A stretch of 64,000 nucleotides of DNA from Thaumarchaeota archaeon casp-thauma3 (GTDB lineage: Archaea; Thermoproteota; Nitrososphaeria; Nitrososphaerales; Nitrosopumilaceae), in contig LFEY01000014.1 of assembly GCA_001510275.1 (NCBI GenBank), positions 1 through 64,000 of the forward strand, given 5' to 3'. The notes under the pieces are model-generated. The model did no database searches. It was given only the letters and a program-made list of their open reading frames with translations, and was not told the origin of the DNA. The stretch's first letter is position 1. Each line of letters opens with the position of its first letter. Positions 51,990-52,984 of the stretch are shown one piece after another. The position numbers and the translations under genes were made by a program.

Positions 51990-51999
51990 TTAAAAAAAG

Positions 52000-52073
52000 T
52001 GGGCCGAGAGAGATTCGAACTCACGATCACCGCCGTGTCGAGGCGGTATCCTAACCAGCTAGACTACCGGCCC
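52000..52073 (-). tRNA. tRNA-Val (GAC), with noncanonical C33
   Basis: On the minus strand: acceptor GGGCCGG pairs with TCGGCCC (one G-U), discriminator A, D-arm GTCT/GGAT with the GG pair, anticodon stem CCGCC/GGCGG and loop TCGACAC. Anticodon at 52038-52036 region is GAC (Val). Position 33 is C rather than the near-universal U. The T-stem GTGAG/CTCTC has one T-T mismatch (50-64); T-loop TTCGAAT is normal. CCA is not encoded and there is no intron. Confidence 0.82.
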
Positions 52074-52155: not shown

Positions 52156-52866
52156 TTGATAGATGATTTTACTGAAGAAGAAAAAATGGGTTTCTATAAG
52201 GCAATTTATTCAAGAAGAGATGTCAGATCTCATTTTACCTCAAAACCCATAGAAGATAATATTTTATCGAAAATTCTTCATGCTGCACATCATGCCCCAT
52301 CAGTAGGATTTTCTCAACCATGGAATTTCATTTTAATTAAAGATGTTGAAACAAAAAAGAAGATCAAAGAATCTTTTGAGGAAGAGAAAAATCGTTCATC
52401 ACAATTAGTTGAGGAACCAAAGAGATCAAAATATCTTTCATTTAAGTTAGAAGGAATTTTGGAATCTCCAGTAAATTTGTGTGTAACATATGATCCTACA
52501 AAATTTGGTCCATTTGTAATTGGTAGATCAAGTATTCCTGAAGCAGGATTATACAGTGTATGTTGTGCAATCCAAAATTTATGGTTATCAGCAAGAACAG
52601 AAGGAATAGGTCTTGGATGGGTGAGCATTCTATCAAATGAAACTCTAAAAGAAACCTTAGCATTACCAGAACATGTTGTGCCTATTGCATACTTATGTTT
52701 AGGATATGTTGATGAATTTAAAGAAAAACCAGATCTTGAAACTGCAGGTTGGTTACCAAGACTTGAACTAAAAGATGTTGTATATTTTGAAAAATGGAAT
52801 GAGAAAGAAAATAAAAATTGGAACAGTATTCAAGAAATGATCAAAGATAATCTTGATTACGCTTAA
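52156..52866 (+). CDS. bluB: Nitroreductase-family protein, probable BluB (DMB synthase)
   Basis: A 236-aa flavin enzyme. The FMN-binding start SRRDVRSHFTSKPI, APSVGFSQPWNFILI and the late AGLYSVCCAIQNLWLSARTEGIGLGWVSIL are typical of BluB, which destroys FMN with oxygen to make 5,6-dimethylbenzimidazole, the lower ligand of vitamin B12. An ordinary nitroreductase is the alternative. A cobalamin gene (cbiH/cobJ) lies 10 kb downstream. The TTG start has an AAGAAGG-like site upstream; ATG 52186 is possible. Confidence 0.78.
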   Translation: MIDDFTEEEKMGFYKAIYSRRDVRSHFTSKPIEDNILSKILHAAHHAPSVGFSQPWNFILIKDVETKKKIKESFEEEKNRSSQLVEEPKRSKYLSFKLEGILESPVNLCVTYDPTKFGPFVIGRSSIPEAGLYSVCCAIQNLWLSARTEGIGLGWVSILSNETLKETLALPEHVVPIAYLCLGYVDEFKEKPDLETAGWLPRLELKDVVYFEKWNEKENKNWNSIQEMIKDNLDYA

Positions 52867-52891
52867 ATAATTAAGAATGTTTTTTTTTGCT

Positions 52892-52984
52892 GGGCTTGTG
52901 GCGCAGAGTCAATTTGACGCGAAACATGGATAGCGTGGTAACCTCCTAAGTTACAGGTCGAGGGATCGAAGCCCTCCAAGCCCG
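52892..52984 (+). tRNA. tRNA-Arg (CCT) with an 18-nt insertion in the D-arm
   Basis: Acceptor GGGCTTG pairs with CAAGCCC, discriminator G. Anticodon stem GTAAC/GTTAC holds loop CTCCTAA; the anticodon CCT is at 52945-52947. T-stem GAGGG/CCCTC with loop ATCGAAG (A instead of T at 54). D-stem GCGC (52901-52904) pairs with GCGT (52933-52936), leaving a 28-nt D-loop. Removing 52907-52924 gives an ordinary loop AGCATGGATA. A TATA-like TTAAATAAT lies about 27 bp upstream. The insert may be a noncanonical intron. Confidence 0.85.

Follow-up and report, generated by a model that had tools for sequence, protein, structure and literature searches.

A short D-loop insert in the tRNA-Arg(CCT) gene of a Nitrosopumilus-like archaeon, read as a non-canonical tRNA intron

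The tRNA-Arg(CCT) gene and its D-arm insert

The window (the whole 64,000-nt stretch of DNA analysed here) carries a tRNA-Arg(CCT) gene whose cloverleaf was read directly from the sequence (Table 1). It is the sole detectable tRNA-Arg(CCT) gene of this Nitrosopumilus-like marine ammonia-oxidising archaeon, and no second copy was found in its own genome, a draft that is 96.6% complete in 31 contigs. The acceptor strands are GGGCTTG (52892–52898) and CAAGCCC (52977–52983) with a discriminator G at 52984, the anticodon CCT lies at 52945–52947 and the T-stem is GAGGG/CCCTC; the acceptor, anticodon and T stems are all perfectly paired. The D-stem halves, GCGC (52901–52904) and GCGT (52933–52936), are 28 nt apart, and the 18-nt D-arm insertion described in an earlier note on this DNA was confirmed by direct reading. 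The same note considered A at position 54 of the T-loop to be odd, a feature that proved ordinary, as the T-loop sequence ATCGAAG is common to three other tRNAs of the genome, namely tRNA-Arg(TCT), tRNA-Arg(TCG) and one tRNA with the anticodon CAT.

The unspliced gene was not called by ARAGORN, and the sole ARAGORN call in the window was a normal, intronless tRNA-Val(GAC) gene found approximately 0.8 kb away (51999–52073, minus strand). When bases 52907–52924 were deleted in silico, a 75-nt cloverleaf was obtained that ARAGORN called as tRNA-Arg(cct), with the predicted spliced D-loop AGCATGGATA; removal of these bases does restore a normal D-loop, as had been claimed. The Rfam tRNA model scored the unspliced gene at 25.7 bits, below the gathering score of 29, with a match limited to 52914–52979, and no family other than tRNA was found at this gene in the Rfam scan with E up to 0.1. 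Read as an intron, the insert shows how tRNA-Arg(CCT) of ammonia-oxidising archaea can escape common tRNA finders. Published lists that give archaeal CNN tRNAs as 'missing' therefore call for caution. A group I or group II self-splicing intron was also considered and rejected, as the insert is only 18 nt long where more than approximately 200 nt would be expected, and Rfam shows the tRNA family only. The AT-rich, TATA-like element upstream of the gene is a putative promoter. A scan for promoters and terminators around the gene detected none using bacterial-type models, which are uninformative for archaea.

Table 1. Features of the tRNA-Arg(CCT) locus, in window coordinates
Feature	Position	Strand	Remarks
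TATA-like upstream element	52863–52879	+	AT-rich, TTAAATAATTAAGAATG; kept before the gene in most same-genus genomes
tRNA-Arg(CCT) pre-tRNA gene	52892–52984	+	93 nt including the discriminator base; CCA not encoded
5′ exon	52892–52906	+	acceptor 5′ strand, U8, G9, D-stem 5′ strand GCGC, A14, G15
Insert (proposed intron)	52907–52924	+	18 nt between tRNA positions 15 and 16: A, hairpin GTCA-ATT-TGAC, GCGA, AA
Inner hairpin of insert	52908–52918	+	helix h′ of the relaxed motif; 52908–52911 with 52915–52918
3′ strand of central helix H	52919–52922	+	GCGA; partner is the D-stem 5′ strand
3′ exon	52925–52984	+	C16 onward: D-loop remainder CATGGATA, D-stem 3′ strand, anticodon arm, variable loop, T-arm, acceptor 3′ strand

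The boundaries of the insert were established by comparison. In families f2, f15 and f21 there are orthologues without the intron whose D-loop is likewise AGCATGGATA. Ten orthologues from other families (L074, L075, L076, L210–L214, L216 and L217) had no D-loop insert and an ordinary 10-nt D-loop AGNNTGGAYA, which in most was exactly AGCATGGATA, and this D-loop recurs in two paralogues from the genome analysed here, tRNA-Arg(TCT) and tRNA-Arg(GCG). As the intronless orthologues carry this sequence, the junction is fixed between tRNA positions 15 and 16. It is also unable to slide, because the insert begins with A where the 3′ exon begins with C, and ends with A where the 5′ exon ends with G. 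The predicted splice sites are therefore 52906/52907 and 52924/52925.

Occurrence of the insert in related archaea

In a DNA search, the 93-nt gene was found full-length in most genomes of the same genus, with 85–99% identity, and the tRNA-Arg(CCT) gene was matched in 43 of the 61 genomes searched. A comparison with related Nitrosopumilus genomes, proposed in the earlier note, showed that 66 of the 72 genomes in the genus have the insert at this site, indicating that it is not a product of chance. One further genome (G025) showed a precise loss and the remaining five had no match to the pattern.

The survey was extended over the class using 296 genomes that were at least 85% complete, with a search pattern whose anchors were the anticodon loop and, because the 3′ ends of the introns imitate an intronless D-loop, also the acceptor stem. 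The insert was present at the D-loop site in 178 genomes and the precise intronless form in 33, and no genome contained both forms. A control with reversed patterns produced no matches for either form. Named carriers include Nitrosopumilus, Nitrosarchaeum, Nitrosotenuis, Nitrosotalea, Nitrosopelagicus and Nitrosocosmicus as well as a Cenarchaeum MAG. The two forms were found within single groups: in genus g33, six of ten genomes were intronless and four had the insert, and in family f8 all ten genomes of genus g51 were without it and several other genera carried it. The insert was also present in family f20, which belongs to a different order (L209, L226 and L227). The distribution is most simply explained by an old intron with recurrent precise loss, though repeated gain at one site may be an alternative. 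One D-loop site that is occupied in two or more orders, and from which the intron has been lost precisely in close relatives, makes a clean natural series for the study of intron persistence and loss, and the class-wide persistence of this single site is the mildly interesting part.

Inserts were also seen elsewhere in the gene. A tRNA-Arg(CCT) gene from another family (L215, G060:C36:19440–19640) seems to be interrupted twice, in the D-loop and again after the anticodon, and one of the intronless D-loop orthologues (L216, in G052) has an insert after the anticodon only.

Pairing within the precursor and the proposed splicing route

The hairpin GTCA/TGAC and its extension CGC/GCG with an AGA bulge, noted earlier, are present in the insert. 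In relatives, the inserts are 14–35 nt long and the only near-constant positions are those of the splice motif. Among the 114 pattern matches in named genomes that were counted for anatomy, 112 shared the form GCGC AG/A-hairpin-GCGN AN/N ATGGAYA (slashes mark the junctions), with rare single-base variants. The other two (Phenylobacterium, L178) were chance-like and lacked the shared anatomy. The first base of the insert was A in 110 of the 114 matches, and AG/A followed by the hairpin creates a 3-nt bulge at the 5′ splice site.

The central helix, formed by the D-stem 5′ strand and the 3′ part of the insert, has three of four base pairs in the window, with a G.A mismatch at position 10; it has all four in relatives with GCGC or GCGT, and in 57 of the 114 named matches. 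Over 74 distinct introns, this register was paired in 88% of cells for the central helix (exon GCGC with intron GCGN) and in 97% of cells for the first three base pairs of the hairpin, far exceeding the slid registers with the exception of a single register likewise permitted by the CGCG repeat. In that competing register, positions 10–12 are paired two bases upstream, which is possible in 57 of 80 distinct introns and impossible in 23; pairs 11–13 (D-stem C11-G12-C13 with the 3′ part of the intron) are possible in all 80. In the same-genus alignment, three pairs were altered on both sides (13:28 C-G to U-A in L066, 17:27 G-C to A-U and 18:26 U-A to C-G, in gene numbering), and none of 500 shuffles reached the observed covariation score. 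When the window sequence was folded alone, the minimum-energy fold was the competing register and the proposed central helix had a probability of 0.06, and for this reason comparative evidence was used to define the motif. In 70 of the 80 distinct introns the proposed register was favoured with a probability above 0.5.

In the sequences read, an outer exon helix is impossible below the 3′ bulge, because the A at position 17 has no partner in the G or A found at position 9. The insert is therefore assigned to the relaxed HBh′ form of the bulge-helix-bulge rather than the full hBHBh′, in line with the earlier suggestion of an incomplete motif. It has the topology of the archaeal splice motif: the 3′ part of the intron serves as partner of the 5′ exon strand, and cleavage is predicted after the second base of the bulge.

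The genome encodes RtcB and two splicing-endonuclease (PF01974) genes. The product of one (G000:C15) aligns with the crenarchaeal catalytic subunits 2cv8 (E 1.4e-42) and 3p1z and keeps the motifs FAVY...GIDHAPY...RKQF, with the Tyr, His and Lys motifs intact. In the other (G000:C17), which has matches among other archaeal endonucleases, the His region is missing. A catalytic and a non-catalytic subunit fit the alpha2-beta2 endonuclease type, for which broad specificity is predicted, and this type has been assigned to Thaumarchaeota in a review (PMC4090602).

We conclude, with a probability of about 0.95, that this short insert is a non-canonical tRNA intron of the archaeal type, located at 15/16 of tRNA-Arg(CCT) and almost certainly removed by the ordinary tRNA-splicing enzyme via the standard mechanism. 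The D-arm intron and its boundaries, as proposed in the earlier note, are strongly supported by the intronless orthologues, the paralogues, the covariation and the phylogenetic conservation; from these we infer cleavage and ligation, and their placement at these phosphates. In the precursor, positions 11–13 of the D-stem 5′ strand would pair with the 3′ part of the intron, joined by position 10 if the intron offers C or U there, so that the bulge A14-G15/A lies beside the small intron hairpin. The endonuclease (catalytic alpha with non-catalytic beta) would then cut after G15 and after the last intron A, and the exons would be joined by RtcB. The freed D-stem strand could then pair with positions 22–25 to form a normal cloverleaf, and excision at 15/16 would leave the mature D-loop sequence AGCAUGGAUA.

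Retention of the insert, which would give a mature tRNA-Arg(CCT) with an enlarged, two-hairpin D-arm, is compatible with the present evidence, all of it at the DNA level, and fits both the genus-wide conservation of the insert in sequence and structure and the stable lone fold of the unspliced RNA (z −2.31). It is nonetheless very improbable, as the conserved pairing occupies the D-stem strand required by the cloverleaf, orthologues in close relatives lack exactly the insert, and constancy is confined to the splice-motif positions in inserts that range over 14–35 nt. A decayed copy, also raised in the earlier note, with a functional tRNA-Arg(CCT) elsewhere, is scarcely credible. A draft genome might miss a second copy, but both forms occurred together in none of 211 genomes, including complete single-contig relatives, and none was found here. 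The perfect acceptor, anticodon and T stems, the conserved upstream element and the compensatory changes, which show selection, also argue against decay. Equally hard to credit is excision at phosphates other than 15/16, in the shifted register that is both the window's own minimum-energy fold and open to most of the distinct introns. The exon junction is fixed by the intronless orthologues and the differing flanking bases do not allow a slide, the register is closed to 23 of the 80 introns, and the U13-A pair in L066 supports the proposed register.

For the intron at 15/16, a function beyond its removal that would account for its class-wide retention, in place of its being a neutral relic, seems unlikely; an example would be a folding switch, with the intron holding the D-stem strand until modification or splicing licenses the tRNA.

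Further inserts were found in other tRNA genes of the genome. The tRNA-Glu(TTC) gene (L230:85–178 approximately, within G000:C5:50780–51010) has a T-loop insert of approximately 14 nt, was called by ARAGORN only once this was removed, and probably contains another non-canonical intron. The tRNA-Val(CAC) gene (L231, G000:C10:24980–25160) has an extra stretch of approximately 16 nt in the variable loop that is likely to be a non-canonical intron. These two suggest that such introns are habitual in this genome. A weak tRNA match on the minus strand (L229, G000:C24:9620–9840) resembles tRNA-Trp with a long anticodon-arm intron holding ATGATG and CTGA. This is perhaps a candidate box C/D guide, presumably akin to the one known from archaeal pre-tRNA-Trp.

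Comparison with known tRNA introns

The D-arm intron, its boundaries and the relaxed motif are the parts of the earlier interpretation that stood. Along with the enlarged D-arm, the decayed copy and the odd T-loop, the implied rarity of a D-arm intron was set aside, as non-canonical introns, including those in the D-arm, are documented in the articles consulted for Thaumarchaeota and allied archaea (PMC8450103, PMC4090602, PMC3293823, PMC6379350), and the insert therefore belongs to a known kind. The main text on tRNAscan-SE 2.0 gives 107 non-canonical introns in the Thaumarchaeota genomes analysed, for which a dedicated covariance model was trained (PMC8450103), D-arm introns are found in Caldiarchaeum subterraneum tRNAs (PMC3293823) and D-loop splice motifs are mentioned in a general review (PMC6379350). 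A link to attachment sites of mobile elements was considered: the text of a thaumarchaeal survey reports integration into tRNA genes and does not name tRNA-Arg. Position 15/16 of tRNA-Arg(CCT) was named nowhere in the main texts of the articles consulted, and this intron may well be catalogued already, probably among the tRNAscan-SE database entries for cultured Nitrosopumilus.

The introns in the tRNAscan-SE 2.0 set share the phylum with the one described here, a comparison made at the level of the main text. Those of C. subterraneum are likewise non-canonical D-arm introns, in a lineage allied to Thaumarchaeota, and are likened here by arm. The closest comparison is with the relaxed forms HBh′ and hBH in the nomenclature of Marck and Grosjean, as reviewed in the main texts of PMC4090602 and PMC6379350, where non-canonical introns are given lengths of 11–129 nt with medians mostly of 12–25. 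Position 15/16 is absent from the examples in the main text of the review (20/21, 22/23, 25/26, 29/30, 'etc.'). The insert is otherwise like these introns in its short length (18 nt), in the pairing of the 5′ exon strand with the 3′ part of the intron, in the 3-nt bulge with a predicted cut after the second base and in having a host with a two-subunit endonuclease.
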